This document shows, piece by piece, positions 13,085 through 36,764 of a stretch of 64,000 nt of DNA. How positions within the stretch are numbered: the stretch's first letter is position 1; each line of letters starts with the position of its first letter. A program made the translations under genes and the position numbers. The notes below the pieces were generated by a model. It saw only the letters and a list, made by a program, of their open reading frames with translations. It did not search any database and had not been told where the DNA came from. This stretch comes from Anaerolineales bacterium. Lineage in GTDB: Bacteria; Chloroflexota; Anaerolineae; Anaerolineales; Villigracilaceae. The stretch is taken from positions 1-64,000 of the forward strand of contig JABFSL010000030.1 of assembly GCA_013140605.1 (NCBI GenBank). Reading direction: 5' to 3'.

Positions 13085-14098
13085 TTACGGAAGGCGGCGC
13101 TTTCCAGATTTACTCCAAACCACACCACCGATCAACCCAAAAAGAGCGGCCAGCCCAGCAAACCCAAATGGATTTACCCGGCCGGGCGTAACGGTTACCG
13201 CAGGTTCTGAATTCGTTGGAACTTCGACACCGGCAATGGGAATATTTTGCGATCCGGGAATGGATATTGGCGTACCGGCGCTGTGCATCTGATCAGCGTG
13301 GCAGTCATTACATGCCTCCAACTTTGGTTTGAAGTCATGGTCTGGAACTTTATGGAAATCATCTGTTCCTTTTGAAGAACCGATGTGACACTTGACACAG
13401 GTTGCGCCAGCTTTGGCATGGTTTGAATGAACTGCATTCTGCGCGATCTCTTTATGGCAATTCTCGCACAAGGAGGAGATATCCGCATCAGATTGGCTGG
13501 CCAGCTTGATGGAAGTCGAGTGCGGGTTATGACAATTCGAACAAGTCATATTGTTTTGATAGTGAACGCTCGTCTTCCAGGTTTCCCATCCAAAGCGATC
13601 ATTGGTGTGACAGGTGCTGCATAGATCTGTGCTTTTATCAACCGGCATACTCTTATTCGGGTGGTCTGATGGAATGGGATTATGGCAGGCCTCACAGGTA
13701 ATTCCTTCAGCTTTCCAGGTTTCATCAGCAGGGTTATAACCGGTGACATGGCACTGTAAACAATTATTTGGTTTGCCCTGCTCCGTCCAGAAGTCATTGA
13801 ATTCCGAGTTGGACTCGACTGGCTTCGGCAACATGACGCTGCCATCAGGGATTTCCTTATGACATGCCAAACAATTTCCCTGCTGCTCCAGAGCGTCCCT
13901 GGCGCGAATATCTCCGTGCCCGCTTTGGTGCCATATCTCATATACATCAGAATGGCAGGTGTTGCAATTATTAGCCGTGGTTGTGGCTAATGGAGGATTT
14001 GGAATATCCGTTTGCGCCTTCGCCACAATCAATGCAGCGCCCGCGATCAGCAGTGTTAATATCAATGAAATGAAAAAACGCATAGTACGGGAAATCAT
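13085..14098 (-). CDS. Nonahaem cytochrome c with C-terminal anchor
   Basis: About 337 aa from the ATG giving MISRTMRFF; the longer ORF start lies in an apparent mobile element. A signal peptide (FFISLILTLLIAGAALIVAKA) is followed by nine CXXCH motifs (CNTCH, CLACH, CLQCH, CEACH, CSTCH, CSNCH, CENCH, CVKCH, CNDCH). It ends in a hydrophobic segment (AGLAALFGLIGGVVW) with a basic tail, an outward-facing membrane anchor. Spacing and additional histidines resemble cytochrome c3/NrfB-like electron carriers. It stands alone on the minus strand, downstream of the large multihaem operon and separated from it by a terminator-like hairpin. Confidence 0.9.
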   Translation of the reverse strand: MISRTMRFFISLILTLLIAGAALIVAKAQTDIPNPPLATTTANNCNTCHSDVYEIWHQSGHGDIRARDALEQQGNCLACHKEIPDGSVMLPKPVESNSEFNDFWTEQGKPNNCLQCHVTGYNPADETWKAEGITCEACHNPIPSDHPNKSMPVDKSTDLCSTCHTNDRFGWETWKTSVHYQNNMTCSNCHNPHSTSIKLASQSDADISSLCENCHKEIAQNAVHSNHAKAGATCVKCHIGSSKGTDDFHKVPDHDFKPKLEACNDCHADQMHSAGTPISIPGSQNIPIAGVEVPTNSEPAVTVTPGRVNPFGFAGLAALFGLIGGVVWSKSGKRRLP

Positions 14099-14133
14099 TT
14101 TATATACTCCGTAAAAAGAAATATAAATGCAAT

Positions 14134-14311
14134 TGACCTCTTGCAAAAGTCTTTTGCCACACACTTGCCCTTCGCGTCGCGTCGCGAAGCGAAGCCGATG
14201 TGGCGGGCAGTGCCAGGGGAGGTCACTGAGAAAAAAACAGAGTTTTAAAGGTTTTCTCAAAAGACTCTGCGTGCTCTGTGGCTACATTACACCTACTTAT
14301 GCAAGAGGTCT
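14134..14311. mobile_element. MITE-like element with terminal inverted repeats
   Basis: GACCTCTTGCA (14135-14145) and TGCAAGAGGTC (14300-14310) are perfect inverted ends about 176 bp apart; a further four bases (AAGT/ACTT) pair after one mismatch. No transposase ORF lies inside. The rest of the 455-bp gap (14099-14554) holds a TTTACTTCC/GGAAGTAAA inverted pair and the terminator at 14487. A non-autonomous IS derivative is the likeliest reading. Confidence 0.6.
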
Positions 14312-14486
14312 AATGTAACTTTTACTTCCATGGCTTTGTTCGTAGTTTATATGTTTCCCAAAAGGAAGTAAATTCGGCAGTCACCCAATCTTTTTATTTA
14401 TTTTCCATCGCCGCCCCATTCACGTTCCCGATTTTCATTATTTTGCGTGGGGGATTTACCCCATTTCTTCCTTTGCTCGGAATATA

Positions 14487-14525
14487 AAATATTCCCCCAC
14501 TTTATCTTTAAGCGGGGGAATATTT
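14487..14525 (-). terminator. Terminator after the nuclease gene
   Basis: AAATATTCCCCC (14487-14498) and GGGGGAATATTT (14514-14525) pair perfectly over 12 bp. Read on the minus strand the stem is followed by TTTTATATT. It sits 30 bp past the nuclease stop and probably ends the transcript coming from the giant cytochrome gene. Confidence 0.75.
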
Positions 14526-14554
14526 GGGATGGATTTTAATTTGAGAATTTCAAG

Positions 14555-15355
14555 TCATGGCGCAGCAGGCGGAGTCACACTACCCGCAGACTGCCCAGCC
14601 TGTCTGAATGTTTGGGTGCAGGCTGAATCAGGCGGAACATCCAGCGCAGTTCCGAGTCCCTGGGTGATCAATTCAAGATTGACGAAAGTGTCGCCAACCA
14701 GGACATAACGCAATAGTCGGCCGCTATTATCCTTATCGGAAACATCCGCTATTAAATTTACATCCTTCCCATAAACGAACACCGAATTGATCTGTCTGGC
14801 CGTTTCACCCTTAAATTTGTCTTCGGGAGCCGCCACGCCAATATAACGGACAACATAAACAAGACCATCCATGAGGACTCTTATGGTGCTGCCATCAATC
14901 ACCTCCACCACCCTGCCAGTTTGTGGAGGATGATTAGGAATGCAATCCTTATTGATCGAGACTATGGATGTTATCCCTAATGTGGGAGAGGCTGTGAACA
15001 ACCCTTCTGTGGGAGTTAATGCGATCAAACCCAACGTGGGGGTTGCTGTTTCCAAAACAGGGACAGGTATCAGGGTTGGCAGATTATTCGTAGGGCTGGC
15101 AGGCATGGCTGTCGGCGGAATATTGAAGGCCAAAGGAGTCGCCGTCCATTCGGGAGTATTAGCAGGCGGTAATTCAGTTTCAGAAGCTGATAATTTTGGC
15201 AGTATCTCAGAGACCGCATCACGTAATGATTTGCCATCAGGCATATTCGTCAGCATGAAAAAAAAAGCAAAAACGCCGCCGACCAATAACAGGCTGACGA
15301 TCACAATGAATTTATTGATAATGTCCTGTTTCCAAAAATCAATAAAGCGCTTCAT
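14555..15355 (-). CDS. Membrane-anchored staphylococcal-nuclease-like protein
   Basis: A 266-aa protein with an N-terminal membrane helix (FIVIVSLLLVGGVFAFFFML), a Thr/Pro-rich linker of about 90 residues, and a C-terminal SNase (thermonuclease) domain. The three catalytic positions of the family are visible: R in VVRYIGVAAPE, E in KGETARQ, and R in DNSGRLLRYVL. The hydrolytic domain is probably outside the membrane. It follows the 93-aa membrane protein by 33 bp in the same direction and may be co-transcribed with the giant cytochrome. A role in degrading extracellular DNA is possible but unproven. Confidence 0.85.
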   Translation of the reverse strand: MKRFIDFWKQDIINKFIVIVSLLLVGGVFAFFFMLTNMPDGKSLRDAVSEILPKLSASETELPPANTPEWTATPLAFNIPPTAMPASPTNNLPTLIPVPVLETATPTLGLIALTPTEGLFTASPTLGITSIVSINKDCIPNHPPQTGRVVEVIDGSTIRVLMDGLVYVVRYIGVAAPEDKFKGETARQINSVFVYGKDVNLIADVSDKDNSGRLLRYVLVGDTFVNLELITQGLGTALDVPPDSACTQTFRQAGQSAGSVTPPAAP

Positions 15356-15388
15356 AATTTCCCTTTTCTGGAGTTGAAACCAAAATCC

Positions 15389-15670
15389 TTATCCTTCGTT
15401 TTGAGTCCGCTTCAAGGGGACCAGGCCCTTGAATACACGGATAATTGTCTGCAAAAAGTTTAATCCGCCGATCAAAATTGGCACAAGGGATATCACCAGG
15501 ACTGCGGTATGCCTGCTTCCAAACAAACCTGTCAGGGCGTAGCTTAGATCGAACGGCCCCAATGGGCGGATTTCGAAGTGGTAATAAAACAGCAGCCCCA
15601 TGCCAACGAGAGCAGAATCAATCAACAGGTCAAGCAGGAGCGAGAATGGTTTAAGACGGTGCTTTCTCAT
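15389..15670 (-). CDS. Small two-helix membrane protein
   Basis: A 93-aa protein, family unrecognised. Two hydrophobic segments are visible (LIDSALVGMGLLFYYHF and TAVLVISLVPILIGGLNFL) with a basic N-terminus (MRKHRLK). It begins 17 bp after the giant multihaem gene and precedes the nuclease, so it is likely co-transcribed with both. No catalytic or haem motif is present. Confidence 0.6.
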   Translation of the reverse strand: MRKHRLKPFSLLLDLLIDSALVGMGLLFYYHFEIRPLGPFDLSYALTGLFGSRHTAVLVISLVPILIGGLNFLQTIIRVFKGLVPLKRTQNEG

Positions 15671-15687
15671 CGCGTCAATTCCTACAA

Positions 15688-18600
15688 TTAGGGATATGTC
15701 TCATTATGATCCGTTCCGTGACAGGCAAGGGCACAAGTTCCACCAGCAGCAGATGGGGTAAAAGCCGTCTGGCTGTTTAGACCGCCGGTAAATGTGACAA
15801 CGCTGGCGTCAAAATTTATCAAGTGGGCCTGCTCGCTGCCATGCGAATTATGACAGGTATAGCAGGTTGTTGTTGTGAATCCGCCTGACATATGTTCGCT
15901 ATGCAGGTTGTTTCCATCCTGGAAGCGCGTATTGGCTGTGGAATTACTGGTCACATAAGTGGCGTAATCATGACATTTGAAACAGATCTCAGTATTTGGA
16001 ACCGTTGGATCATTGCCGCCCGCGTTGACCGTTGAATAGTTCGCATCGCCAACTGCGGAACCGTCAAGAATGTGTAAAAGCGGCGAACCATGCGGGCCAT
16101 CCGCGCCTATGGCGGGCGTGGCGTTGGTATGGCAATCTGTACAATAAACGCGGCTGTTAACATCCCAACCAGCCACAAAGCCTCCAGCGGGCATGGTGGT
16201 ATTTTTGCCCGTTGTCATAAGCGGATGGAAACTTGCATTGGCAGGGTTGAAGGCGGCCGCAAGATCACGCGGGTCTTTAATTTGATCTGGATTTATGCTG
16301 GTAAGTTTCCGCAAGCCATCGGCCACGAAGGTTCTTGTACAGCCGTCCGTTACACAGCCCCAGCCTTCAGGCAGGTAGGATGGCAAAGTGGTGTAACTGG
16401 AATGGCATTTTAGGCAAACCTGATATTCATTTTCAGGCTGGCTTATGAAATTAAATCTGGTGGGCGCGCCGATGCCGTTGAATACAGGCTCCACGCCGAG
16501 TGCACCGGTATTCTGAAGTTTGGTGGCGGGGGCTGTATTGATGCCAGCGGAATCTTCATGCGGGCCGTGACAATCTCCGCATTCAGTATGGCGATTCGCG
16601 CCGCCAAACTGTGAGCCAAACACTTCATCGGCAACATGCGGACCGTTGGTCTGGTCAACGTTATGCCCGAAGAAACGGGTGCCCGTGTTGGTGTAGCTGC
16701 TGAAAGCTGTTTGAACGTTCGTGCCTGCGCCGCCAGTTGTGTGGCAATAATAGCAGAATCTTTCCTCCTGCCGCATCGGGTCAATGGGATTGGCGTCATT
16801 GACAAAATTCCATGGCGAGAGCAGTTTTACTTTATTCGATCCATGACCGCTGTCATGACAGTCCAAACAGGAGCCGCGGAAAGTGCTAACTACTGAATTA
16901 TGCATGGCAGACGACCATAATGTTTCATCGAGAGATGGTACAAGTTTTTCATCACTGAACGGAGTCTGGTTTCCCGCGCGGCCGTCACCATCATGACAGG
17001 AAACACAGAAGTTCTCATAATCTGACGGGTCATCAACTGCGTTTGCAACATAATCAAGAGTGTAGACGGTGGACGGAGTATCCACATTGAACAGGCGTAC
17101 CTTGCCTGCCGTATGCTGGGTCATCTCATGGCAGGTCTGGCAATCGCCGTCGGTAACGGAATCATTGCCGCTGACATGATGAGAAGCGCGCATGAAATCT
17201 CCAGCCGCACCAACGATCTGGCGACGGGGTGTGCCCTGCCCAAGATCCTGAGGTGTCGAATGGCAGGCACGGCAGCTTGCCATGAAACCGTCACTTGTAG
17301 CGGCGGATGAATCGGCGCTGTGTTGATGACAACTTACGCAATCCAATCCGCTGTAATCCATGCCACCATTATGATTGGCGCCGCCCGCATGATTCAACAT
17401 GGGTCCGCCGGGGTTGGCAGGATCGACATGGCAGGAGACACATAAGCGATTGGCTGTTGCGCTGACGCCATCATCGTAGGAATTCAAACCCGTTGTGGCC
17501 GTGAAATTAATTGGACCGGTTGTAACAATTGGATCCGTATTGGTTGTAACACGCACATCCGAACGAATGGAGAATAAATTATTACTTCCATGCGGGTCAT
17601 GACATTGTGTGCATAATAACTCAAAGGAGGCCTCAACACGCAGTCCTGCCCAGTCTTTATTTGAATGCGTGGATACAGTCACATTGCCATTCTCGTGGCA
17701 ACTTAAACAATACGCGTTTCCAGTCAATGAGGATAGCCCCAAATTGGGTCCCCGCGCCGCACTGTGATCGCGATGACAGGCAGAGCATTTATCGGTAATT
17801 GCATTAAACCCACCGTGCGGATCCGCATTTGCAGCAGTGACCGTGATCGTGATCGTATCCACACCGGTACGGCTGGATGCATCGGTTGCGCTGGCGGTGA
17901 TGGTGTGTGTTCCAACGGTTAGATTTCTTCTGCCAAAGCTGGAGCCGCTTTCGATGAGTCCGTCGCGGCTGGAATTCCATTGAATGGTGTCGCTAATATC
18001 GCCATTTACAGGGATAAGAGCCTGACCGGTAAAGAGGATATTTGCTCCCTGCGCAAAAGTGGTGCCGTTGATCGGGGAAATAATGGTAACAATGGGCGGT
18101 GTGTTACCTGCGGCATCTGTAACCGTAACGCGGATGGTAAATGAGCTATCCAACCCGCCAGAGTCAATGACGCTAGCTGTGATTCGATGAGTACCCAGGC
18201 TGAGCGTGCTGGTCGAAATACCAGCGCCAGAACCGAGGGCGCCATCTACATTGGAACTCCACTGAATATTGGCGCTGATATCTCCATCCAGGGTGTCAGT
18301 AGCTGTGCCGCCAAAACTGACGAGCGTTCCCTGTACATAGGTTGAATTATTGGCAGGGGTATCTATTGTAATAAGCGCCGGCGTATTTCCACTGGCATCT
18401 GTTATTGTGACTGTTATTGTGATTGAGGCAGTTCCATTAAAGGAATCCCTGGCTGTGGCAGTAACGGTATGAACGCCCAGGCTCAGATCACTCTTCGAAA
18501 AAGTTGCGCCGCTCCCAATGATGCCGTCAATACTGGAAGTCCATTGCAGGCCGGCGGTAATATCACCATCTTCCGTATCTGTGCCTGTGCCGGCAAATGT

Positions 18601-21600
18601 GATGGCCGTTCCCTGCACAAAAGATAAATTAGTTGCAGGTGTACTGATGGCAGCGGATGGAAGTGTATTCGGCTGGGTAATTTGCGATCCGCTTGCCGCC
18701 GCGCTGACGACATTCTCCGCAGTTGCATCAGCCACAGCCTGTACACGCCAATAATAAGTTGTATTGGGCATTAATCCAGTGGCGGGATATGAAGCGGCAT
18801 GAGCAATGGTCTTTGTGACCGAGGAGAAGTTTATATTATCTGTTGAACGGAAAATGTAAAAGCCTGTATCGTTGGCTGAATTGTCAGTCCAGTTCAAGGT
18901 CATGGAAGTTACCGCAACACTGGTGAAATTCAAGGCAGTTGGCGCATCCACCGAAGCGGATGTACTGGCATTGCCTTCGGCCGCCGCGTATACCTTCCAA
19001 TAATTGTTGGCGCTATTTGCCAGACCTGTTGCATTAAAGATCGTGGTGTTCGCCGCTGTCTGTCCAAAATAAGTGTAATTGATTCCATCAGTGGATGTAT
19101 AAATGCTGAAGCCATCTTCACCTGTGGAATTGTCAGTCCAATTCAAGGTAACAGATGAATTGGTCACATTTGTCAAATTCAAATTGCCGGGCGGATTAAG
19201 CGTGATGAGACCGGGAGTAAAAGTATAGACAGTGTCGAACGGCGGTTTTACATTCAAACTCGTTGTCTCGGTCACCGTACTCCATGTTGGGCAGGCACTG
19301 ATATTTTCCGCGGATATAAAACTATTGTTTGCGGTTCCCGTGATGCCGATGGATGCGGTCGCGCCCGCATTCGCATTGTTGGGGTAATACATAAAATCAA
19401 CAATACCTGTCCCCTCGTGCAGGACAACCCGCATACTGATACGGCTTCCAGCGCCATCGTTCCACTGATAATTCCACCACTCAAAAGTAAAAGTGCGGTT
19501 TGGAGCAGTGCCATTCGTTGTATAAGAAGCGGCGCTTCCCGCCCCTGCCCCTCCCAGGTTATCCCACAATGGCGCAAGGATCGGACGGGCAGCAACGTTG
19601 GAGGCATTATTGGCGCTATTATCAAGATCATTTAGAGTCAGAGAGTCTGCACCTGAATCATTGAAAGACAACCATCCATTTGAACTGACATAAACTTGAG
19701 TATAGCGGGTGCCCATATACCAAAATTCAAATCCCAAGGGAACGGGAGCAGACACCGCATTATTAACCAGAAGAGATGGAACACTGGTACCGCCAAGCGC
19801 CGCATTATACGTTGCTGTGCCGCAACTCCGTCCATAAGAATTGATCGTGGAACCGGCCATGTCGGTCAACATGCCAACATCGCCGCCGGGGATGGGAGCT
19901 GGATCATCGCCCGGCACAGGAGTCGGCAAGATCGGCCCGCCATAATTGAGCGCATCGAAAGCCTGAACAACGCCATAACCAAAATACGGATCGCGTCCCG
20001 CCGCGCCAAGGTCAAGCGCCTTGTTGAACAAGGCGGAAGTCAGGAAATTCCCATCGCTAAATTGAGATTGCCCGGCCAACAAAACAGCAACACCTGAAAC
20101 ATGCGCGGAAGACATGGATGTACCGGAAGCCAGTGAATAAGTTCCGCCGGGGAATGTGGATTTGATATCAACACCGGGCGCAGAAATACTGATGTGATCG
20201 CCGTAGGATGAGAAGGGCGCCGGCACAAAACTATTATCCACCGCGCTGACTGCGATTACGCCTGAATATCCAGCCGGGTAATAAATTGTATTATCGCCCT
20301 TATTGCCGCCTGCCGCCACAACGATCACGTTATGGGCAAGGGCATAATCTATGGCGTTCTGCAAAATATCGCTGGAACCAGTTCCGCCAAAGCCAAGGTT
20401 GATAACGCGCGCGCCCATATCAACGGCGTATACGATTCCTTCCGCCACCATTGCATGTGTGCCATAACCGTTATTATCCAAAACTTTGATCGGCAGGATG
20501 CGCGCGTTGGGGGCAATGCCCGCAATGCCAATGCCGTTATTCGCCTGTGCGCCAATGATGCCCGCCAAATGCGTGCCATGTCCCTGGTCATCACCGATAT
20601 TATTATTGCCGGCCACCATATTCCAGCCCTGCCAGTCATCCACGTAACCATTGTTGTCATCATCAATATTGTTGGTGTGTTTATCCGCGCCGTTTGCATC
20701 CAATCCGCTTTCGGCAGGATTCTGCCAAATGGAGTTGGATAGATCAGGATGGGTTACTTCCACGCCGCTATCGATCACAGCTACCAAAACCTGTGACATC
20801 ATCGGCAGGGCATCCCATGCTTGAGGTACTTGAATGGAGGTCAAATTGGATTGAGTGGAAAATTCCGGGTCATCCGGTGCGCCAGCCAACGCAACCAAAT
20901 AATTGGGGTCGGCAAATTCAAGGCTGCTGTTATTTTGCAACGCCGTCAGAACCGTATTAAGTTTTGACGCTTCAACATTTACAACCAGGCTGTCAAGCGA
21001 TTCGATGGAAGTGCTGTCAGTCGTTAAATTAATGCCAAGGTCCTTGATGACTTGAACAGCCTCGGCACGATTTTGCGGATCGATCTTAAGCACAAGCTGA
21101 TTCTGAACATGAGCAGATTCCAACTGTTGGGAGACGCTCAGGTCGGATGTGCCCGGGGTGGCGGTCGCCGTCGAAGCCGGATCAGACGTCGGGGTGGTTG
21201 ATGCGGTTCCAATCGCAGTGGCGGCCGCTGTGGGAGTCAGAGCAGGCAGTCCGTAGATCACGCGGCGCGCTGATTCGATCTCGCTTGCGGATGGAAGATC
21301 AGGGTTGTCTTCAGTGGTGATGATATGTTCGACATAATCAACAGCGCTTTCACAGCCTGCCTGGAAATTCTTTGAGATATATTTCCAACGCAGCGGCTTT
21401 TTATCCTTCAGAGTGGCGCGCATGGCGCTGCTGGTACAACCGGGCCCGGCGTGATAGTTGGCCGTTGAAAGTTTCCAAACTTCCTGCCACTCCATCTGGC
21501 TGACTGCGGCTTTGCCGGTCAGGTTTTTTGCGATCTGGTCGATCTGATGGAAATTTGCCTTGAGCGCCGCCGCAAAAACAGGGATGCTTTTTTCAGTACT

Positions 21601-22488
21601 ATCAAGATCGATCCTGTTGGAACAATTGGCGCAGTCGGCGCGCACTTGGATCAAAGTGGAACCGCGTAAAAACGCCCGTTCAGATGCAGAGATGCTGAGA
21701 TAATCTTTTTTACAATTTTCGACATCCAAAACATCCTTGCACATTTTTTTGAAGAAGGGGGTATTCCACATCAGGAGTGTGTCTGTTCCGTTTTCGGTCA
21801 ACTGGCCGATGCCATATTCAGGCGGAACATGTCTGGATGCCTGCGGCCACATCTGGCTTTCCTGAATCAGGAGATTCTTAAACATGTACGCGGGAATATT
21901 TTCCGTTACCGCGGCATTTAAGATGATTTCATCAAAACGGTTCTGCCAGATGAATACAAAAGGCCGCGCCGCAGTCATACCACAGGGATTGGCATAACCA
22001 TTGGGAAGCAGGGCGCTTCCATTACAGGCGCTTACATCCACATAACCAGCGGCGATCAATTTGCCGGCCAGATATGTCAGTTGACGATTCATCTGCAAGC
22101 CCGAAGCGGTATCTGGAGTTTCCAGCCAGGAATGGGTTATAGCTGTGGGCGTTGCCGTTGGAATTATTTTGGAAAGATTGTATTCACCGTTCTGCCAGCC
22201 TGTAAACAAATCATCCCCACAGGTTTGTTTGATCTCATCAGAAGTCGGTTCGCCTTCATGTGTGATATTGATGATACATGCGATCTGTCCACTATCCTTG
22301 CGGATTAAATTCCATGCGAAACCAGTCTCACCACTAGCTGCGTTTACCACCTGACTGCTGAACAGCAAACTAAAGCCAAGCACGATCAACAGGAATGCTT
22401 GTGGAATGGCTTTGATTTTTGCCAGCAAGGCAGGCAGGAACTTTCTGTGGTGAGTATTTTTGTTGGACATGGAGCGGACATTTTTCAT
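15688..22488 (-). CDS. Giant fusion: lysozyme-like, subtilase, FN3/Ig-like, ~16-haem cytochrome
   Basis: A 2266-aa exported protein. After a signal segment (FLLIVLGFSLLFSSQVVNA) comes a lytic-transglycosylase-like region (IQESQMWPQAS near 208, YGIGQLTENG). An I9-like propeptide and a complete S8 subtilase follow: Asp in VAVIDSG (~571), His in GHGTHLAG (~636), Ser in SGTSMSSAHVSG (~790). Next is a beta-sandwich region (YVSSNGWLSF), two fibronectin type III domains (~1100-1270) and three Ig/cadherin-like repeats (~1275-1550). The last ~710 residues hold 15 CXXCH motifs and a final CALACH (CX3CH). The first haem module resembles that of the 6-haem gene upstream. No C-terminal anchor is seen, so secretion or surface assembly is likely. 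Confidence 0.9.
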   Translation of the reverse strand: MKNVRSMSNKNTHHRKFLPALLAKIKAIPQAFLLIVLGFSLLFSSQVVNAASGETGFAWNLIRKDSGQIACIINITHEGEPTSDEIKQTCGDDLFTGWQNGEYNLSKIIPTATPTAITHSWLETPDTASGLQMNRQLTYLAGKLIAAGYVDVSACNGSALLPNGYANPCGMTAARPFVFIWQNRFDEIILNAAVTENIPAYMFKNLLIQESQMWPQASRHVPPEYGIGQLTENGTDTLLMWNTPFFKKMCKDVLDVENCKKDYLSISASERAFLRGSTLIQVRADCANCSNRIDLDSTEKSIPVFAAALKANFHQIDQIAKNLTGKAAVSQMEWQEVWKLSTANYHAGPGCTSSAMRATLKDKKPLRWKYISKNFQAGCESAVDYVEHIITTEDNPDLPSASEIESARRVIYGLPALTPTAAATAIGTASTTPTSDPASTATATPGTSDLSVSQQLESAHVQNQLVLKIDPQNRAEAVQVIKDLGINLTTDSTSIESLDSLVVNVEASKLNTVLTALQNNSSLEFADPNYLVALAGAPDDPEFSTQSNLTSIQVPQAWDALPMMSQVLVAVIDSGVEVTHPDLSNSIWQNPAESGLDANGADKHTNNIDDDNNGYVDDWQGWNMVAGNNNIGDDQGHGTHLAGIIGAQANNGIGIAGIAPNARILPIKVLDNNGYGTHAMVAEGIVYAVDMGARVINLGFGGTGSSDILQNAIDYALAHNVIVVAAGGNKGDNTIYYPAGYSGVIAVSAVDNSFVPAPFSSYGDHISISAPGVDIKSTFPGGTYSLASGTSMSSAHVSGVAVLLAGQSQFSDGNFLTSALFNKALDLGAAGRDPYFGYGVVQAFDALNYGGPILPTPVPGDDPAPIPGGDVGMLTDMAGSTINSYGRSCGTATYNAALGGTSVPSLLVNNAVSAPVPLGFEFWYMGTRYTQVYVSSNGWLSFNDSGADSLTLNDLDNSANNASNVAARPILAPLWDNLGGAGAGSAASYTTNGTAPNRTFTFEWWNYQWNDGAGSRISMRVVLHEGTGIVDFMYYPNNANAGATASIGITGTANNSFISAENISACPTWSTVTETTSLNVKPPFDTVYTFTPGLITLNPPGNLNLTNVTNSSVTLNWTDNSTGEDGFSIYTSTDGINYTYFGQTAANTTIFNATGLANSANNYWKVYAAAEGNASTSASVDAPTALNFTSVAVTSMTLNWTDNSANDTGFYIFRSTDNINFSSVTKTIAHAASYPATGLMPNTTYYWRVQAVADATAENVVSAAASGSQITQPNTLPSAAISTPATNLSFVQGTAITFAGTGTDTEDGDITAGLQWTSSIDGIIGSGATFSKSDLSLGVHTVTATARDSFNGTASITITVTITDASGNTPALITIDTPANNSTYVQGTLVSFGGTATDTLDGDISANIQWSSNVDGALGSGAGISTSTLSLGTHRITASVIDSGGLDSSFTIRVTVTDAAGNTPPIVTIISPINGTTFAQGANILFTGQALIPVNGDISDTIQWNSSRDGLIESGSSFGRRNLTVGTHTITASATDASSRTGVDTITITVTAANADPHGGFNAITDKCSACHRDHSAARGPNLGLSSLTGNAYCLSCHENGNVTVSTHSNKDWAGLRVEASFELLCTQCHDPHGSNNLFSIRSDVRVTTNTDPIVTTGPINFTATTGLNSYDDGVSATANRLCVSCHVDPANPGGPMLNHAGGANHNGGMDYSGLDCVSCHQHSADSSAATSDGFMASCRACHSTPQDLGQGTPRRQIVGAAGDFMRASHHVSGNDSVTDGDCQTCHEMTQHTAGKVRLFNVDTPSTVYTLDYVANAVDDPSDYENFCVSCHDGDGRAGNQTPFSDEKLVPSLDETLWSSAMHNSVVSTFRGSCLDCHDSGHGSNKVKLLSPWNFVNDANPIDPMRQEERFCYYCHTTGGAGTNVQTAFSSYTNTGTRFFGHNVDQTNGPHVADEVFGSQFGGANRHTECGDCHGPHEDSAGINTAPATKLQNTGALGVEPVFNGIGAPTRFNFISQPENEYQVCLKCHSSYTTLPSYLPEGWGCVTDGCTRTFVADGLRKLTSINPDQIKDPRDLAAAFNPANASFHPLMTTGKNTTMPAGGFVAGWDVNSRVYCTDCHTNATPAIGADGPHGSPLLHILDGSAVGDANYSTVNAGGNDPTVPNTEICFKCHDYATYVTSNSTANTRFQDGNNLHSEHMSGGFTTTTCYTCHNSHGSEQAHLINFDASVVTFTGGLNSQTAFTPSAAGGTCALACHGTDHNETYP

Positions 22489-22587: not shown

Positions 22588-22649
22588 AACAAGAATATGG
22601 AGGAGGTTGCTGTGAAGTGGACAATGGTGACTCGCTCCATATTCTTGTT
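22588..22649. repeat. 15-bp inverted repeat upstream of the giant gene
   Basis: AACAAGAATATGGAG (22588-22602) and CTCCATATTCTTGTT (22635-22649) pair perfectly around a 32-nt loop. It lies in the 318-bp gap 22489-22806, about 100 bp before the giant gene's start. It could be an operator, an RNA leader structure or a repeat. The gap also has the hairpin at 22763; the 73-aa ORF there has no support. Confidence 0.6.
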
Positions 22650-22783: not shown

Positions 22784-22806
22784 CCATCAGAAAATTCATT
22801 TCAAAC

Positions 22807-24243
22807 TTACGGGGTAACCGTAAAGTTTACCGTGCTGGCATGACAGCGCAGACAGAGTGAGCGGTTGTCCATGCGGAGGAGGGTACTACCACCCGCCAAG
22901 GAAGCACCATCGGGCGGAGTTACAGCCGGGGTATCAGCGGTACCAGCAAGTGCGGTCATTGCGGCAGTCGTGCCGTGGGAGACGTGGCAAGCCACACAAG
23001 AACGGCTGACTGAAGTACCGCCGCCAGCGGTACTCGTGCCATCCATGGAGAGGCGGATATCACCGGAGGCGTGGCGGAACATATAGGTGGTGTCGCCGCT
23101 GGAGCGAACATCAGCCCATAGCCAGCGTGGGGTCGGAGCAGTTGTGCCGGTATAGTAATACGGCAAACAACCCGTCGCATCCACGGCGCTTACGGAATTA
23201 ATGTCGACAGGAGGCACGTAACCAACATCGCCAATGCGAGTGCAATAGGCGCTTTCATCTGTGTTGTTGCGCAGACGGCTATTGTTGAAATAGCGGTCAT
23301 GGCACTGAGCACAGAAGTATGCCGTATTGACAGCCGCCGGGATGTAGGTCTGCGTAGCAGGGGCAGCGTTCAACGGCTGATAGGTGTTGTTGGCATTACC
23401 GTTGTTATAGTCACCAGCGGCAAAGGGACCGCAGGCATAGGTATTGGGGGCAGTGCCACAAGTTAACGTTTGAGCCCCAATCGTGTACCATTCACTGCCA
23501 TTGGCAGCGTAGTTATCAGGAACCGTCCAACCTGCGGTCAAGCCGCTCACAGGGAAGTTACCGCCGCTCCAATTAACCGAAGTGGCAGGTGCCGTGAAGC
23601 CGCCAGAACCCTGGGGCTGCCAGCGTAGTAAACGGTAGGAGGAAACCTTAACCGTACAGGACTCTGTAAGCGGTGTGGAAGCGGCAAGAGTCACATTACA
23701 ACCTGTGGTCTGCGTGGTGGCATTGGTAAAGCCGGCTTTACCGTGCGGGTCGTGACAGGTGGTGCACTCAAGAACCATCCCCGCATTAGTGCTGTTATTA
23801 GCGCCAGAACCCCAAACTGTACCAGCAGCACCCACTCCATGTGTAGAAGTAGTGGCCTTTGAGGTAGCATCAGAACCAGCCTTAAATGTATGTGAGCCAT
23901 TCCAGGCTGTAGCCATGAGCGCATTGGTGAAACCACCTCCAAACAAGGATGCACCGTCAGTTCCTTCAACGCTGCCGTAGGGAGAACCAGCCGCCATGTA
24001 TACACCGTCCACAACATTCGTGGCAGCGCCACTGCCGTTGTGGCAGGTAAGGCAAAGAGCTTCGGGATCCATGATCAGCAGTGAATTACTACCGACCTTG
24101 GCAGAGTGGGCACGGTGACAGCCGGCACACGCATCTGTGGTGGCCGTAAAGCCTCCATGAGGGCCGTTATCGGCCATGGCAACTGTAGCAAGGGCTAAAA
24201 CCAGCAATAAGCCCAAAGCTAAAGCAAACAAAAATTTCTTCAT
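22807..24243 (-). CDS. Hexahaem cytochrome c, doubled-CXXCH type
   Basis: A 478-aa exported protein: signal peptide MKKFLFALALGLLLVLALA ending in AMA, then GPHGGFTATTDACAGCHRAH. Six CXXCH motifs are visible (CAGCH, CLTCH, CTTCH, CAQCH, CVACH, CLRCH), widely spaced by Gly/Ala/Thr-rich sequence. The N-terminal haem module is closely similar to the one opening the cytochrome part of the giant protein (GGFNAITDKCSACHRDH), so the two are related. An AGGAG site precedes the ATG. Extracellular electron carrier is the most likely role; no anchor is seen. Confidence 0.88.
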   Translation of the reverse strand: MKKFLFALALGLLLVLALATVAMADNGPHGGFTATTDACAGCHRAHSAKVGSNSLLIMDPEALCLTCHNGSGAATNVVDGVYMAAGSPYGSVEGTDGASLFGGGFTNALMATAWNGSHTFKAGSDATSKATTSTHGVGAAGTVWGSGANNSTNAGMVLECTTCHDPHGKAGFTNATTQTTGCNVTLAASTPLTESCTVKVSSYRLLRWQPQGSGGFTAPATSVNWSGGNFPVSGLTAGWTVPDNYAANGSEWYTIGAQTLTCGTAPNTYACGPFAAGDYNNGNANNTYQPLNAAPATQTYIPAAVNTAYFCAQCHDRYFNNSRLRNNTDESAYCTRIGDVGYVPPVDINSVSAVDATGCLPYYYTGTTAPTPRWLWADVRSSGDTTYMFRHASGDIRLSMDGTSTAGGGTSVSRSCVACHVSHGTTAAMTALAGTADTPAVTPPDGASLAGGSTLLRMDNRSLCLRCHASTVNFTVTP

Positions 24244-24394: not shown

Positions 24395-25609
24395 TTAGTA
24401 AGACCAGATTTGAATACGATTGTTGTCCCTGTCGGCAATATACAATCGTCCGCCCGCATCAATGCAGATATCGATCGGGAAATTGAATTCGCCTTCCAAA
24501 GTTCCAAATTCACCGAAATTAAAGAGGAACTTTGGTTCGCTTCCAGAAACATCATAAACACGAATATATTGTCCAACCGAATCGGCTACATGCAGGCGGT
24601 CCTTATCACTCATCCAAATACCGCGCGGCAAATTAAGTGAATCTTCGTTGGAACCAAATGCAAAGAAGGTTTTATATTGCATATCAATTGTCCAGACCGA
24701 AACACGGCCGTTATTGCCATCTGAAACATAGAAATTTCCGAGGCTGTCAACAACGACACTATTGGGGAAGGACAACTGTCCATTTTCCTTTCCTTCAACA
24801 CCAAATTCTTTGATCTGCGGGTTGAAACCAAGTAAACTCCCGTTGATGTCTGCCGCCGAATAGATCAACACCCCATGTTTTCCACTGATGATATTCGTAA
24901 CCAGCAGGTTACCGTCCGGGTCAAAGCGCAAACCAAGCGGTGACCATTCTGTTTGCTGTGGACCAGGCACACTCTTTGCTTCCTGATCGGGCAGTTTGTA
25001 ATCAACGGTCTTGGTTATATTGTTAAAGTAGTACAGTGTGCCCTGGGGCAAAGCGCTGCCAACTTGAGCGGTGACAAATTCACTCAAGGTCAGATCCTTG
25101 TCGATCATGCCGTCCAGGAAATTGCCGTCCGCGTCGAAGATCGCGACAACGTTGTTGTAAGTATCGTTGACAAAAACGCGCCCAGCCGCATCAACAGCAA
25201 TATAGGCTGGCTTGCGATTTGAATTCGATGTACCGGGAGGCGCAAAACTCTTAATGAAATTACCGTTGCGGTCAAACATCTTGATCAAACGTTCGCCTGT
25301 CGACTCGACCGCATATATTCGCTGGCCATCCGGTGAAACGGCAACACCCACAGGCCCATCCAGCCCAATGATGGAGGATACATAGGCAGGCGGGTAGCTA
25401 ATGGCCCCGGTAAGGGGAACCAACATTTCAGGCAAAGGCTCGGGCTTGAGTAAATAACGCACGAAAAAATAACCGACACAGCACAAAAGTGATAAAAGCA
25501 AAATCAGCAGGAGTAAAAGCTTGCGGCGTTTACGCTCATCCTGTTTATCCTCGGGAGAAATATTCTGCGGGAAATCTTTCGATTCAAGTTCAATATCAGG
25601 GGTTGTCAT
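24395..25609 (-). CDS. Membrane-anchored NHL-repeat beta-propeller protein
   Basis: A 404-aa protein with a cytoplasmic N-terminus, one membrane helix (KLLLLLILLLSLLCCVGYFF) and an outside domain of about six NHL repeats. Repeat signatures include GPVGVAVSPDGQRIYAVES, VVDSLGNFYVSDGNNGRV and ICIDAGGRLYIADRDNNRI. NHL propellers bind proteins or polymers and are common beside multihaem cytochromes in metal-reducing bacteria, where a scaffold role is suspected. It lies 12 bp after the TPR gene in the cytochrome operon. Confidence 0.85.
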   Translation of the reverse strand: MTTPDIELESKDFPQNISPEDKQDERKRRKLLLLLILLLSLLCCVGYFFVRYLLKPEPLPEMLVPLTGAISYPPAYVSSIIGLDGPVGVAVSPDGQRIYAVESTGERLIKMFDRNGNFIKSFAPPGTSNSNRKPAYIAVDAAGRVFVNDTYNNVVAIFDADGNFLDGMIDKDLTLSEFVTAQVGSALPQGTLYYFNNITKTVDYKLPDQEAKSVPGPQQTEWSPLGLRFDPDGNLLVTNIISGKHGVLIYSAADINGSLLGFNPQIKEFGVEGKENGQLSFPNSVVVDSLGNFYVSDGNNGRVSVWTIDMQYKTFFAFGSNEDSLNLPRGIWMSDKDRLHVADSVGQYIRVYDVSGSEPKFLFNFGEFGTLEGEFNFPIDICIDAGGRLYIADRDNNRIQIWSY

Positions 25610-25621
25610 ATCTCAATTACC

Positions 25622-26575
25622 TTATTTTTTTAATCCAGCTTCCACGCGTTGAATACCAATGGAAGCGGTAAAGTTATTTACATCGATCTTCAGCGCGGCC
25701 TCATATGCCAATTTTGCATTCGGCAGATCGTTCATGGCCTCATAGGTTCTTCCTAAACCGGCAAATGTTGGGGCGAAATCGGGTTTGGCTTCAGCAGATT
25801 TTTGCAACAGGTTAAGGGATTTTTGATAATCCTTGTCTGAGTACGCCATCATGCCGCGCGCATAATCAACAAGTTCGGGCATCGCGAGGGCGTCATAGCT
25901 TTCAGACATGGCTTTATAGGCTTCAAGATAATCCGGCACAAAAGTTGTAGCCGCATGGAACATATTGACAGCTTTGGCATAATCCTTGTTTCCAGCATAA
26001 GCAAGTCCCAGCTTGTACATCGAGTCCGCATCCGTCTCACTCCAATTGACCGCATTTTCCAAAGGTAGAATTGCCTGATCGGGCTGGTCAAGTTGAAGAT
26101 AACTATCACCCAAATAATAGGAAGCAGCCTGCAGTTGTTTATCCAGACCGGGCATTTCTTCATCCTTGCGGCTGTCAATAAATTTCTGTAATGGCACGAG
26201 CGCAAGCTCTGGGTTTCCATTATTTGCGTAGGAAATCCCCAATACAAAATCCACTCTTGCGTTGTCTGGGTATTCCTTTTGTACCTGCAATGCCTGTTCA
26301 ATGGCATCATCAAAACGGCCGTAGAGCAGGTACGTTTCAGTCAACGCCAGGCGGACATCTGGATTTCCTGGGTCATCACGTACTGCCTGCTCGGCCCCGG
26401 CAATTGACTGTTCCACAATGGGTGCCTGGGTTTTAGCATAGCGGTCAAAGTAGTAATAGGTTCCAAAACTCACCAGTCCAGCTACTAGTACGATCGTCAG
26501 TAAAATGACTATTCGCTGTATCTGATAAGTGCTCGAAAACAAGCGCTCATTAAGAAGTGTGAGGTTTTTTTTCAT
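25622..26575 (-). CDS. Membrane-anchored TPR protein
   Basis: A 317-aa protein with one N-terminal membrane helix (IVILLTIVLVAGLVSFGTYYYF) and about six tetratricopeptide repeats, for example DVRLALTETYLLYGRFDDAI and DSMYKLGLAYAGNKDYAKAV. TPR proteins next to cytochrome genes often act as assembly or maturation factors (compare NrfG/CcmH C-terminal domains), which is inferred here. GGAAAAGAA precedes the ATG. It sits between the NapC-like gene (81 bp) and the NHL gene (12 bp). Confidence 0.85.
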   Translation of the reverse strand: MKKNLTLLNERLFSSTYQIQRIVILLTIVLVAGLVSFGTYYYFDRYAKTQAPIVEQSIAGAEQAVRDDPGNPDVRLALTETYLLYGRFDDAIEQALQVQKEYPDNARVDFVLGISYANNGNPELALVPLQKFIDSRKDEEMPGLDKQLQAASYYLGDSYLQLDQPDQAILPLENAVNWSETDADSMYKLGLAYAGNKDYAKAVNMFHAATTFVPDYLEAYKAMSESYDALAMPELVDYARGMMAYSDKDYQKSLNLLQKSAEAKPDFAPTFAGLGRTYEAMNDLPNAKLAYEAALKIDVNNFTASIGIQRVEAGLKK

Positions 26576-26656
26576 ATTTCTTTTCCTTGATCATTATTAG
26601 GTACCGTGTGCAGAGTTGTTTTTGCACGCGGACATTCCTGCCAATATCCATTACCT

Positions 26657-28168
26657 TTATGGATTCTTAAGTACTCCAGCGGGGTGACAACGCGTGCAGG
26701 ATATATTCTGATGACAGGTATAGCAAACCTGATCTCCACGCGCGCGATATTCCTCGGCGTGTGTGTAAAGCATATCTTCGGGATGGGAAAGGTTATGGCA
26801 GGCGCCATTGTTACAGAAGGATTGTCCGTGGCAGTTGTAGCATTCCTGCTTCTGTTCTTCTGTTACAGAGCGATGATCAACCGTCCAGCGGAAATCTGTA
26901 TGAGATGATGGCAATCCCCCAACGATCACAGGCGCTTCGATCAGCAGGTCACTGCCTCTGCCGACAATTGGTACTGTGTGACAAAGGTTACACTCGCCGC
27001 TGATAGTGATGGTTTCCCCGTTTCCCTGACCATCAATTACAACATGCTTGTCATCATGGCAGCGGAAACAGCCTAAAGAAGGGGTGTGGCGTTCATTGTT
27101 TGGATTCGTATCCCAGGTCAAATTCATATAGGGAAAATTGGTGTCTGAATATATATCTTTAAGTTCCGCAATCGCATCAGCGGCTAATTTTTCCTTTTGG
27201 CTTTTTGATATTGACGCAATTGTTTGGGAGGCATAATATTCAACCAAACCATCCATGGCAGCGAAAGCCTCGGTCTCTGAAGCATAAGATCCCTGCAACA
27301 ACTCAACAGCCTTCGCGCGAATAAAAGGCAGATCGCGCGAGATCAACTCATCAGAAATGGCCTTATCCACAGATTGTTCAGGGTAGGGAATGTAATGAGC
27401 CGCGCGGTTATGACAGTCAATACAATCCAGCTTGCGGATGTTCCCTTCGGCGCGGGCTTTCTCAACAAAAGCAGTTTGTCCCATACCGACCAGATCGCGC
27501 GCAAAATATTCCTTAAGCGACCCGTCAGGCTGACGGACACCCACCCACGCGATTACCTGTCTCTGTTCATCCAATGCAATGTAATAAACTTCGCTGCTGA
27601 CATGCCAGTGAATGCCATCGCCGATCATGCCTGTACTGGTCTGCTTGCCGCCCATCTTTAAGATTAGAGTCGTTTGAACCAAGGTATTGGCTTCATCATT
27701 ATCGTAATGACGAATGGTCTTAACGATATTATCCTTGAATGTGGTCGGGGAATGACAGCCTTCACAAGTTTCACGGGCCGGGCGTAAATTCTTTACCGGG
27801 CTCTTAATAGGTCGGGAATAATCGCCTGTGATCTCGCCCACTAATTGTCGCGTGCCATCGATCTTTGATTGGATGAACGAAGCCGCTCCGGGTCCCACGT
27901 GACATTGAGCACATTCAACCTTCGCATGGGGAGATGCCTGATAGCGCACCCACTGCGGATCCATGGAATGGCAAACTGTTCCGCAAAACTCGGAGCTTTC
28001 ACTATAAACGAATGCCTGAACCCCTCCGACCAGCATTCCCAAAGCGACGACGAGTACTGCCAAAATACCAAATGCCAGCTTCATTCTATGAGAACGCTGG
28101 CGCAGATCAATCGTAATGGTTGGCCAGCCTTTTTTAATTCTTTCGCGCACAGATTTTATGATGCCCAT
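26657..28168 (-). CDS. NapC/NirT-like multihaem cytochrome c (about 10 haems)
   Basis: About 503 aa from the ATG giving MGIIKSVRER, one nucleotide after the upstream stop, with GGAAG in range. An N-terminal anchor helix (AFGILAVLVVALGMLVGGV) is followed by CGTVCHSM, a CX3CH site with the Met that NapC/NrfH proteins use on haem 1. Further sites are CAQCH, CEGCH, CIDCH, CFRCH, CNLCH, CYNCH, CNNGACH (CX4CH), CYTCH and CTRCH. The first part fits quinol-oxidising NapC/NirT; the rest is an added multihaem domain. It would pass electrons from quinol to outer carriers. It is tightly coupled to the cytochrome b-type gene. Confidence 0.9.
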   Translation of the reverse strand: MGIIKSVRERIKKGWPTITIDLRQRSHRMKLAFGILAVLVVALGMLVGGVQAFVYSESSEFCGTVCHSMDPQWVRYQASPHAKVECAQCHVGPGAASFIQSKIDGTRQLVGEITGDYSRPIKSPVKNLRPARETCEGCHSPTTFKDNIVKTIRHYDNDEANTLVQTTLILKMGGKQTSTGMIGDGIHWHVSSEVYYIALDEQRQVIAWVGVRQPDGSLKEYFARDLVGMGQTAFVEKARAEGNIRKLDCIDCHNRAAHYIPYPEQSVDKAISDELISRDLPFIRAKAVELLQGSYASETEAFAAMDGLVEYYASQTIASISKSQKEKLAADAIAELKDIYSDTNFPYMNLTWDTNPNNERHTPSLGCFRCHDDKHVVIDGQGNGETITISGECNLCHTVPIVGRGSDLLIEAPVIVGGLPSSHTDFRWTVDHRSVTEEQKQECYNCHGQSFCNNGACHNLSHPEDMLYTHAEEYRARGDQVCYTCHQNISCTRCHPAGVLKNP

Positions 28169-28169
28169 T

Positions 28170-29087
28170 TTATTGCATGCTTCCTTCGGCGTTTTTTTCC
28201 AACACAAGTTCCGTAACTTCCTCTACAACTTCTTCAATCTGAACAGGCTCTTCCAAATCTTCAGCATCCTCAAGCGGGATCTCGATCTCCACTGGCCAAA
28301 GCCTGTTTTGTATCGCGGCAGAAGCCTGCTCGAGGTAGGCCAGTTCGAGAGGGTGTTCCTCCTCCATCTCTTCAATGGTCATGTTCCCATTGAAAATACT
28401 TAAGTTCAATTTTTTGATCACTGAGTGATAGAAGTGCCAGGTCAGAATGGCAAGTACCGCCAGTATGGCTTCCCAGCGATGGAGCACGCGACTGACAGGG
28501 ATGACCCAGCCGGCAGGCAGGATCATTGTCAACTGGGCGGGGAACCATTGGATAATTCCTGTGACCACCATGACGACAGTCCCCCATACCAATGCCCAAT
28601 ATTCAGCTTTTTCTTCAAAGTTATAACGATCAAAACGAGGTCGGCGAACGGCAAGACCAAGATTGAATTTGATCATTTGAATCGCGTCAGTCAAATCGCT
28701 CCAGACGGGGAGCATCTTTCCGAGGCGGTGATGAACAAAAGCCTCATCAACAAACTTGATAACGTGATAAAGCGACTGAATGCCAAAAACAAAGGCCGCG
28801 ACATGATGTACCTGCCGCGACGCTTCAATACCTCCAAATATGGAGAGGATGAAGCTGCCCAAGAGAGTGTTGTAGTAAGTTTGGGCCAGACCCGTAAGTG
28901 CCAATGTGGTAAAAGAAAAGATCAGGACAAAGTGCTCAACACGCTGTCCAAGAGAGAATCGAATCACATAACGGCTTCCATCTGAAGCAATGCGCAAACG
29001 CTTAACTGCCTCCAACGCATCACGATAATAGATGTAACGCTTCATTGTGGCTGGAATCTTGGGTAATTTAACTTTTGACTCTTCCAT
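28170..29087 (-). CDS. Cytochrome b-type membrane protein
   Basis: About 305 aa from the ATG giving MEESKVKLP, one nucleotide after the upstream stop. At least four membrane segments are visible, with histidines placed for b-haem ligation: VEHFVLIFSFTTLALTG, QVHHVAAFVFGIQSLYHVI, VLHRWEAILAVLAILTWHFYHSV. The pattern matches di-haem cytochrome b subunits of the formate dehydrogenase gamma/thiosulfate reductase type. An acidic C-terminal tail (~50 residues, Glu-rich) is unusual. It likely links the quinone pool to the flanking multihaem proteins. Confidence 0.85.
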   Translation of the reverse strand: MEESKVKLPKIPATMKRYIYYRDALEAVKRLRIASDGSRYVIRFSLGQRVEHFVLIFSFTTLALTGLAQTYYNTLLGSFILSIFGGIEASRQVHHVAAFVFGIQSLYHVIKFVDEAFVHHRLGKMLPVWSDLTDAIQMIKFNLGLAVRRPRFDRYNFEEKAEYWALVWGTVVMVVTGIIQWFPAQLTMILPAGWVIPVSRVLHRWEAILAVLAILTWHFYHSVIKKLNLSIFNGNMTIEEMEEEHPLELAYLEQASAAIQNRLWPVEIEIPLEDAEDLEEPVQIEEVVEEVTELVLEKNAEGSMQ

Positions 29088-29088
29088 C

Positions 29089-30333
29089 TTACTTTCCTGT
29101 TTTTTGTGCTTCGGATGTTTCCACAGATGCACTGGATTTTTTCCTGAGCTTATCTGCCACACGACGGCGGGCATCAATTGCAATGTACACAACAAACCCA
29201 CCTATGAGAGTAGGGATGAAAAATTTATAAAAGGCTGTGATCGCAAACAATAGGGGAGTATCTTCCCAGGTGGGCGAATAATGACTTAACCATGCCTGCG
29301 GAAAAGTAATACCCGCATCCGGGTGACACTGCTGACAGGTCTCTTGCAGGTTGGCCGGATACACGGAAGACATCTCATTTTCAGGGGCTTGAATGTTATG
29401 AACACCGTGACAGTCATAACAAGTGGCCTTTGTAATTTTCACATCACCTGCTTTACGTGAGAAATCAACTGTACGCCCATGAAAATCATCAAGATAAGTT
29501 TGGAAGACATTGGTTGAAATGTCATACTTGCTCATCAGTTCATTATCCGCATGACAATTTCCGCACAATGTGATCGAGTCTGCCCTAAAATTTACATTAT
29601 CCGGGCCATCCACTTTATGGCTGCCATGACAGTTATTACAGGTCGGCACATCAGGATTGGAATCCGCTTCAAGCGCCGCTCCGTGAACGCTGCTTTCATA
29701 AGTCGTATAAACTGAGGTGTGACATTTACTGCATATTTGAGCGATCTTTGTACGCGGCTCACTTGGGGATGTAATATTGTGACTGCCATGGCAATCCACG
29801 CATATCGGCGCATAACGATTCCCCCGCTCCAATACGCGAGTATGTTCGCTGTCTGTTATTTCCTGAAATTTTTCTTCATGACATTTTTGGCAGGAGGAAT
29901 TAATTTCCATGCTGACAGCGCGCGCATCCTGATAGGGTGTAACCTCAAAAACAGGCGCACCCTGGCTGTCTCCGCCTAAAATCTGTGAATGACATACATT
30001 ACAAGATTGTTTCTGTGAATTTTTGTGGGGATATTCCTGTTGAGCATCGTGACATGACCGGCAACCTTCAATATGATTGGAGCCTTCATGTTCCCTGGGA
30101 TCGTAATATAAAGACATTGTTTTGCCGTCAGCAAAGCGCCCGAGCATATCTGGATTGGAATGACAGCCAAGGCAATCTCCTGTTTGATGCGGGCTTGGCA
30201 CTTTCAAGGCTGCGGTAGGGGTTGGGCTGGCTTCCTGAGCCAAAACAGAAGGGGAATCTGTGCTGTCAAAAAGCGCCCAACCCAGGGTGAAAAAAATAAC
30301 GGACAACAACACAAAAAATCTATATCGCATCAT
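29089..30333 (-). CDS. Decahaem cytochrome c with C-terminal anchor
   Basis: A 414-aa exported protein: signal region FVLLSVIFFTLGWALF, then ten CXXCH motifs (CLGCH, CRSCH, CNVCH, CQKCH, CVDCH, CSKCH, CNNCH, CGNCH, CYDCH, CQQCH). A membrane helix (FFIPTLIGGFVVYIAIDA) and a basic cytoplasmic tail follow. CHGSHNI, CHGSHKV and CHGVHNI supply second histidines typical of bis-His haems. Its start overlaps the stop of the receiver-like gene by 4 bp, and its stop is 1 nt from the next start. It forms a quinol-linked unit with the b-type and NapC-like genes. Confidence 0.9.
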   Translation of the reverse strand: MMRYRFFVLLSVIFFTLGWALFDSTDSPSVLAQEASPTPTAALKVPSPHQTGDCLGCHSNPDMLGRFADGKTMSLYYDPREHEGSNHIEGCRSCHDAQQEYPHKNSQKQSCNVCHSQILGGDSQGAPVFEVTPYQDARAVSMEINSSCQKCHEEKFQEITDSEHTRVLERGNRYAPICVDCHGSHNITSPSEPRTKIAQICSKCHTSVYTTYESSVHGAALEADSNPDVPTCNNCHGSHKVDGPDNVNFRADSITLCGNCHADNELMSKYDISTNVFQTYLDDFHGRTVDFSRKAGDVKITKATCYDCHGVHNIQAPENEMSSVYPANLQETCQQCHPDAGITFPQAWLSHYSPTWEDTPLLFAITAFYKFFIPTLIGGFVVYIAIDARRRVADKLRKKSSASVETSEAQKTGK

Positions 30334-30707
30334 ATATTCAACTCTGTATTTGAAAGTGATTGGATCAAACCCACCAGATCCACCGCATGAGTGACCTGTA
30401 ATTCAATACTTGAGAATATCCGTATTCTGTCACTGGAAAGATCAAGCCGAATGATCTTCGCATTCGGTGCCCATTCCAGTAATTGTGTAACGGGTGTCTT
30501 TTGAAAAATATCAGAATCACCGGCATCAAGAATAATAATGGCCGGTGATTCTGTTTGGATGGTTTCGGGGGAATTTATAGTTTCGCTATCGATCAAACGT
30601 ACGTTGAACACATTCTGGTATTCTCTTAGGGTGCTTGCAATTCCGCCTGATAAAAGTGAATGATGTGCCAATATAAGTACGGTGGGAAGTGGTTGGATGA
30701 AATCCAT
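30330..30707 (-). CDS. Receiver-like protein without output domain
   Basis: About 125 aa from the ATG giving MDFIQPLPT; the track's 136-aa version begins at a TTG. The alternation TVLILAHHSLL ... AIIILDAGD ... AKIIRLDLSS fits a CheY-like receiver fold, with a possible phospho-Asp in ILDAGD, but the N-terminal acidic pair is missing (AHH instead of DDH). There is no DNA-binding domain. It is the first gene of the cytochrome operon (ATGA overlap) and lies beside the NarL-type system, so it may be a degenerate response regulator that modulates it. Confidence 0.6.
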   Translation of the reverse strand: MDFIQPLPTVLILAHHSLLSGGIASTLREYQNVFNVRLIDSETINSPETIQTESPAIIILDAGDSDIFQKTPVTQLLEWAPNAKIIRLDLSSDRIRIFSSIELQVTHAVDLVGLIQSLSNTELNI

Positions 30708-36715: not shown

Positions 36716-36727
36716 ATGTGCTTGTTC

Positions 36728-36753: not shown

Positions 36754-36764
36754 ATTTCTTAATC

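Follow-up and report, generated by a model that had tools for sequence, protein, structure and literature searches.

The cytochrome subunits of OmcS and OmcE filaments are joined through a histidine of one that ligates a haem of its neighbour (PMC9473688, PMC12954529), and the Geobacter surface cytochrome OmcZ has a subtilisin, the separate protein OzpA, as its maturase (PMC9473688). Among bacteria with a single membrane (monoderms), Ardenticatena maritima of the Chloroflexi has surface haem and a measured electrode current (PMC5808234), and the Fe(III) reducer Dethiobacter alkaliphilus carries NHL and TPR genes among its multihaem cytochrome genes (PMC10376724). Here we analyse a cytochrome locus in a 64,000-nucleotide stretch of DNA, hereafter the window (contig JABFSL010000030.1, positions 1 to 64,000; our contig C4), from the 3.93-Mb genome, in 132 contigs, of an Anaerolineales bacterium (GCA_013140605.1) that is probably itself monoderm. 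A preliminary description of this DNA had proposed a path from quinol to the cell exterior in a lineage where such systems are poorly described; given the Ardenticatena and Dethiobacter reports, they are not wholly undescribed.

We consider it probable that this is a monoderm extracellular-electron-transfer locus whose conduit is a hexahaem cytochrome resembling OmcS of Geobacter sulfurreducens (PDB 6EF8/6NEF). The path proposed earlier stands as the best reading, as no Omp85 was detected, an OmcS homologue is present and no nitrite reductase gene (nrfA) is linked to the locus. However, the conserved unit is a different one from the trio of cytochrome b, NapC-type and decahaem genes then emphasised. 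It consists of a NapC-type cytochrome, a TPR protein, an NHL protein and the hexahaem, and in the literature that we searched, which takes in few subscription papers, we met with no account of such a module.

A secreted hexahaem related to OmcS

The hexahaem (22807-24243, minus strand) is a candidate filament subunit and, like OmcS, has a signal peptide and no membrane anchor. It is homologous to Geobacter OmcS at the superfamily level. When it was used as a single sequence, searches of the PDB gave no match, and only profiles reached OmcS. A profile of Anaerolineae proteins alone matched OmcS at E 3.8e-6, yet nitrite reductases appeared at similar E values, and we therefore rely on profile-profile comparison with controls, on histidine columns and on structure. 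Profile A2, comprising 25 Anaerolineae hexahaems, was compared by hhalign with profile A4, comprising eight proteins mostly from diderm (two-membrane) lineages, which itself matches OmcS (PDB 6ef8) at 7.7e-77. The two align with a probability of 99.8 and an E value of 3.5e-29 over 246 columns, with the six haems in register, whereas the decahaem and NapC-type families, used as controls against A4 or A2, reach 1e-4 to 1e-5 over 15-80 columns. A further profile, A3, matches OmcS at 1.2e-38, but contains diderm OmcS-like rows and is thus not independent evidence.

Across 64 sequences (63 homologues and OmcS), 12 histidine columns are conserved, and the window hexahaem has all of them. Beside the histidines of the six CXXCH motifs, these correspond to OmcS H2, H16, H110, H147, H257 and H335, the H257 column being conserved in one of two alignments, the more carefully made. 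H16 is the residue that we take to be the inter-subunit haem ligand of OmcS; its counterpart in the Chloroflexota hexahaem is H23 of the mature protein. With a distal histidine predicted for every haem, the hexahaem would have no open catalytic haem. The fold points the same way: a template-free AlphaFold2 model of a 284-residue relative (L044:12119-12970; predicted local distance difference test score, pLDDT, 78; predicted template modelling score 0.80) superimposes on chain A of 6EF8 with Z 11.0 and a root-mean-square deviation of 4.0 A over 216 residues (VIA-align, two chains compared).

Proteins resembling OmcS have been glimpsed before: an OmcS homologue is on record for a Coriobacteriales (PMC7399161), and a digester genome of the Anaerolineaceae encodes a polyhaem protein that shares 22% similarity with OmcS (PMC5481317). 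The haem protein of A. maritima is of another kind, having seven haem motifs and greatest similarity to a Desulfosporosinus protein, and no comparable locus is reported for that organism in the part of the report available to us (PMC5808234).

A conserved core and a partly accessory trio

The NapC/NrfH-type cytochrome, here called NapC10 (26657-28168), matches PF03264 (E 3.9e-13; 49.9 bits against a gathering cut-off of 24.1) and belongs to the NapC/NirT/NrfH quinol dehydrogenase family, making it a candidate menaquinol dehydrogenase. Like CymA, NrfH and NapC, it has an N-terminal NapC/NirT domain and one membrane anchor. Unlike them, it carries ten haem motifs (eight CXXCH, one CX3CH and one CX4CH) in 503 residues, has a long C-terminal extension, and is accompanied by cytochrome b and decahaem partners. 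Orthologues with 50-67% identity occur in 22 other genomes among the 396 of the class that were searched, and a paralogue of about 40% identity occurs alone in 94 further genomes.

When all open reading frames of the 23 orthologous loci were compared with the window proteins, NapC10, TPR, NHL and six-haem genes were found together in 21 loci, and in the remaining two the contig ends in the TPR gene. Three loci (L046, L048 and L060) have the gene order TPR-NHL-hexahaem-NapC10. The TPR protein (25622-26575), identified by domain matches and conserved position, and the NHL beta-propeller protein (24395-25609; PF01436, E 8e-25), whose gene adjoins the hexahaem gene in relatives, each have one N-terminal membrane anchor. 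Genome content gives the same picture, since the hexahaem profile matches 33 of the 396 genomes, including 22 of the 23 with NapC10 (hypergeometric P about 6e-27). Within the window's own genus only two of 11 genomes have a hexahaem, and these belong to differing subfamilies, a pattern suggestive of horizontal exchange or of loss.

The trio consists of a decahaem c-type cytochrome (29089-30333; signal peptide, ten CXXCH motifs and a C-terminal membrane anchor at the hydrophobic stretch 368-386), a cytochrome b561-type membrane protein resembling formate dehydrogenase gamma (28170-29087; PF01292, E 3.6e-12; TIGR01583 below cut-off) and NapC10. The reported 1-nt gaps are as described, the decahaem stop ending at 29089 before the cytochrome b ATG at 29087 and the cytochrome b stop ending at 28170 before the NapC10 ATG at 28168. 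The reported 4-bp overlap, however, lies outside the trio, where the decahaem ATG shares 4 bp with a small open reading frame (30330-30740) that has no Pfam match and whose homologues sit ahead of the decahaem in several loci. A comparison of the trio across Anaerolineae, as the preliminary description had recommended, places the cytochrome b/decahaem part directly upstream in only 10 of the 23 loci, decahaem homologues sitting immediately ahead of cytochrome b. Part of the trio is thus accessory, and NapC10-TPR-NHL-hexahaem forms the core. A second, paralogous decahaem-cytochrome b-NapC10 trio lies on contig C86 of the same genome (L065:17336-20000, L066:1-8822, G000:C86) beside NrfD, a Tat ferredoxin and 6-, 8- and 10-haem proteins, without TPR, NHL or hexahaem genes, and its type of NapC10 paralogue is common in the class. 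That trio may serve another acceptor. Since it occurs without the TPR, NHL and hexahaem genes, finding a trio alone is not enough to infer that electrons are exported from the cell.

The module outside Anaerolineae

Scanning species genomes with A2 recovered relatives in Coriobacteriia/Anaerosomatales, Dehalococcoidia, Thermincola, other Bacillota and Neobacillus, and the TPR-NHL-hexahaem arrangement recurs in Actinomycetota, Thermincola (L108) and Neobacillus. Of 44 monoderm loci, 38 have both a TPR and an NHL gene no more than four genes upstream of the hexahaem, against none of ten diderm OmcS-like loci; this sample was collected using the hexahaem family itself and is biased accordingly. 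The diderm loci have something in common with ours in that half of them (5/10) have an NHL gene nearby, which in some adjoins the hexahaem; none of the ten has a TPR gene. Those of several candidate phyla (L133, L139, L142, L146 and others) differ further in often containing cytochromes of about 26 and about 16 haems. For D. alkaliphilus, the part of the report available to us describes no OmcS-type hexahaems that follow TPR and NHL genes in a fixed order (PMC10376724).

The cluster of Neobacillus niacini NBRC 15566 (L119) runs from a NapC-type 10-haem gene through NapC-type 12-haem, TPR, NHL and three hexahaem genes to a 7-haem gene. Related clusters (L119-L122, L127, L128, L132, L135 and L137) occur in N. 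niacini, N. drentensis, N. mesonae, N. novalis, N. jeddahensis and two Bacillus sp. genomes; they combine NapC-type and 12-haem cytochromes, TPR, NHL and one to three OmcS-like hexahaems, mostly also with a 7-haem protein. These are probable electron-export loci in culturable Bacilli.

A giant transglycosylase-like, subtilase and haem fusion

TPR, NHL, hexahaem and giant genes follow the trio on the same strand, and a nine-haem gene follows these, all as previously located. The giant gene (15688-22488), formerly called a cytochrome, does encode 16 haem motifs (15 CXXCH and one CX3CH) in its C-terminal region, but most of its 2266 residues are non-cytochrome. A signal peptide is followed by a transglycosylase-like domain, a fervidolysin-like propeptide, a subtilase (peptidase S8, residues 566-839, E 6.2e-54, with intact Asp/His/Ser triad motifs), FN3 and Ig-like domains and finally the haems. 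The domain at residues ~100-420 is common to seven homologues and has the ES and GxG[QH] motifs of lysozyme-like transglycosylases; the Pfam SLT family PF01464 scores 14.1 bits against a gathering threshold of 21.3, and we call the domain transglycosylase-like only, as judged from its motifs. TAL-effector matches to it were short and repeat-biased and were judged to be chance.

The fusion recurs at homologous loci in several Anaerolineae families, in the same form in L043 (G382), and with fewer haems or cut by a contig end in L059 (G009), L074, L083, L085 and L118; at other loci the haem part stands alone. By hhalign its haem regions match the first half of the OmcS family. Its last eight haems were considered as an OmcZ homologue and this was rejected, there being no OmcZ match up to E 5 and no CX14CH motif. 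The association of a subtilisin with a multihaem surface cytochrome recalls OmcZ and OzpA, but in the giant protein the protease, the cytochrome and a transglycosylase-like domain form one polypeptide, and since the haem part is unlike OmcZ the parallel is one of analogy only.

The giant gene begins 318 nt past the hexahaem gene and may therefore belong to a separate transcript. Within this gap lies a 13-bp perfect inverted repeat at 22590-22647 (CAAGAATATGGAG / CTCCATATTCTTG), possibly a regulatory element or terminator.

Flanking genes and regulators

All genes of the locus are on the minus strand, and its cytochromes contain 6-15 CXXCH motifs per protein where fewer than 0.06 are expected from each protein's own composition. 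Beyond the giant gene lie a membrane-anchored staphylococcal-nuclease-like protein (14555-15355; PF00565, E 1.2e-6), whose gene also adjoins the giant gene in L118 and is near the homologous haem domain in L100, and the nine-haem cytochrome (13085-14098), which has a C-terminal membrane anchor and a 41% homologue beside the NrfD/Fe-S pair at C86.

On the other side, also on the minus strand, a NarL/LuxR-type response regulator (30874-31518), assigned by sequence and with homologues adjoining the locus in most relatives, adjoins a sensor histidine kinase (31518-32969) with HisKA_3, HAMP and HATPase Pfam matches and NarQ/NarX-like NCBIfam matches below cut-off. The kinase has two CXXCH motifs in the extracytoplasmic part between its two transmembrane helices, as do kinases in L043 and L073, and the pair is found in many homologous loci. 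The kinase may be a c-haem redox sensor that controls the locus. A promoter and terminator scan of the locus gave a signal no better than background overall; it placed a hairpin-like site between the response regulator and the small open reading frame, such that the two regulators may form a separate unit. Further out, 33182-44300 encodes a guanylate-cyclase-AAA-TPR protein, followed by two large HEAT-repeat proteins with a C-terminal cyclic-nucleotide-binding domain, one of which has MFS-like helices.

A proposed conduit and its alternatives

We propose that menaquinol is oxidised by NapC10, with the cytochrome b and the anchored decahaem as possible partners on the quinol side, and that electrons would pass to the secreted hexahaem. 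The latter, with its OmcS-type haem ligands and predicted fold, would probably polymerise into a haem filament leading through the wall and out of the cell; we infer both this direction and an external acceptor. The membrane-anchored TPR and NHL proteins may form an assembly or docking platform for the hexahaem. In the giant protein the transglycosylase-like part could open or remodel the wall, the subtilase could process proteins and the haems could provide a long surface chain. A porin conduit seems unlikely, since a search for Omp85, and not for the porin families themselves, drew a blank in this genome but gave matches in 7 of 14 control genomes, a result that fits a single-membrane cell.

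Several points weigh against this proposal. The window hexahaem has a long insert and its own model is poor (pLDDT 37), which is why the good model is that of a relative; the alignment behind the latter included ten diderm OmcS-like rows, and Foldseek gave no match for it. The tree places the window hexahaem in a Chloroflexota/Actinomycetota group outside the OmcS clade, the diderm OmcS group forming one side of a branch (support 99/98) that leaves it out, and the protein is thus OmcS-like and no OmcS orthologue. It also differs from OmcS in its linkage to NapC10 and TPR and in that its filament is a proposal: homology and fold do not demonstrate polymerisation, and even for Geobacter there is dispute over what cytochrome filaments do physiologically (PMC11077965). 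Finally, the genome also encodes a haem-copper oxidase and NrfA.

The NrfA raises the question whether the locus encodes a respiratory chain confined to the cell envelope, its multihaem proteins serving as carriers or reductases for a soluble acceptor such as nitrite or other nitrogen or sulphur compounds, with the electrons staying in the cell. NapC/NrfH-type and weak DmsE-like matches would fit such a chain, as would the trio on C86 with its NrfD and ferredoxin genes, and several molybdopterin enzymes are encoded elsewhere in the genome. The preliminary description had reasoned that a trio always paired with a nitrite or other soluble reductase would indicate a purely periplasmic role. However, just four of the 23 genomes with NapC10 encode a full-length NrfA, in none of them at the locus, and the host's own copy lies on contig C111 rather than C4. 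Moreover, the hexahaem is secreted and unanchored and has an OmcS-like ligand set and predicted fold; the distal histidine predicted for each haem would leave no open catalytic haem. We therefore regard a soluble acceptor as unlikely.

Slightly less likely again is that the same conduit works inward, taking up electrons from Fe(II), minerals or a partner cell into the quinone pool and on to an oxidase. Gene content does not fix the direction, the haem-copper oxidase could serve as the end point, and both anodic and cathodic currents are described for Ardenticatena (PMC5808234). Against this reading, no member of a known Fe(II)-oxidase family turned up at the locus, and NapC-type enzymes usually oxidise quinol. 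It is very improbable that the hexahaem and the giant protein are surface haem proteins that serve mainly for electron storage, adhesion or the degradation of protein or wall, and form no conduit. The intact subtilase, the transglycosylase-like domain and the FN3/Ig-like domains of the giant protein would suit such a role, but in many orthologous loci the haem domain occurs without the protease, and the NapC/TPR/NHL/hexahaem core is independent of it.

The conduit reading is thus the one that we favour, and the extracellular-electron-transfer interpretation of the preliminary description is mostly supported. More tentatively, and with rather less than even confidence, we suggest that monoderms of three phyla may share a nanowire system distinct from that of diderms, comprising a NapC-type oxidase, TPR/NHL assembly proteins and an OmcS-fold wire, to which the giant fusions in Chloroflexota would add wall-opening, self-processing wire anchors. 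How electrons pass through the thick wall of cells without an outer membrane is poorly known, and the conserved module described here, in which an OmcS-fold cytochrome stands beside its probable quinol oxidase and two proteins that may assemble it, provides concrete genes to study. Since the same module occurs in culturable Neobacillus, its proposed function should be testable outside the uncultured Chloroflexota.

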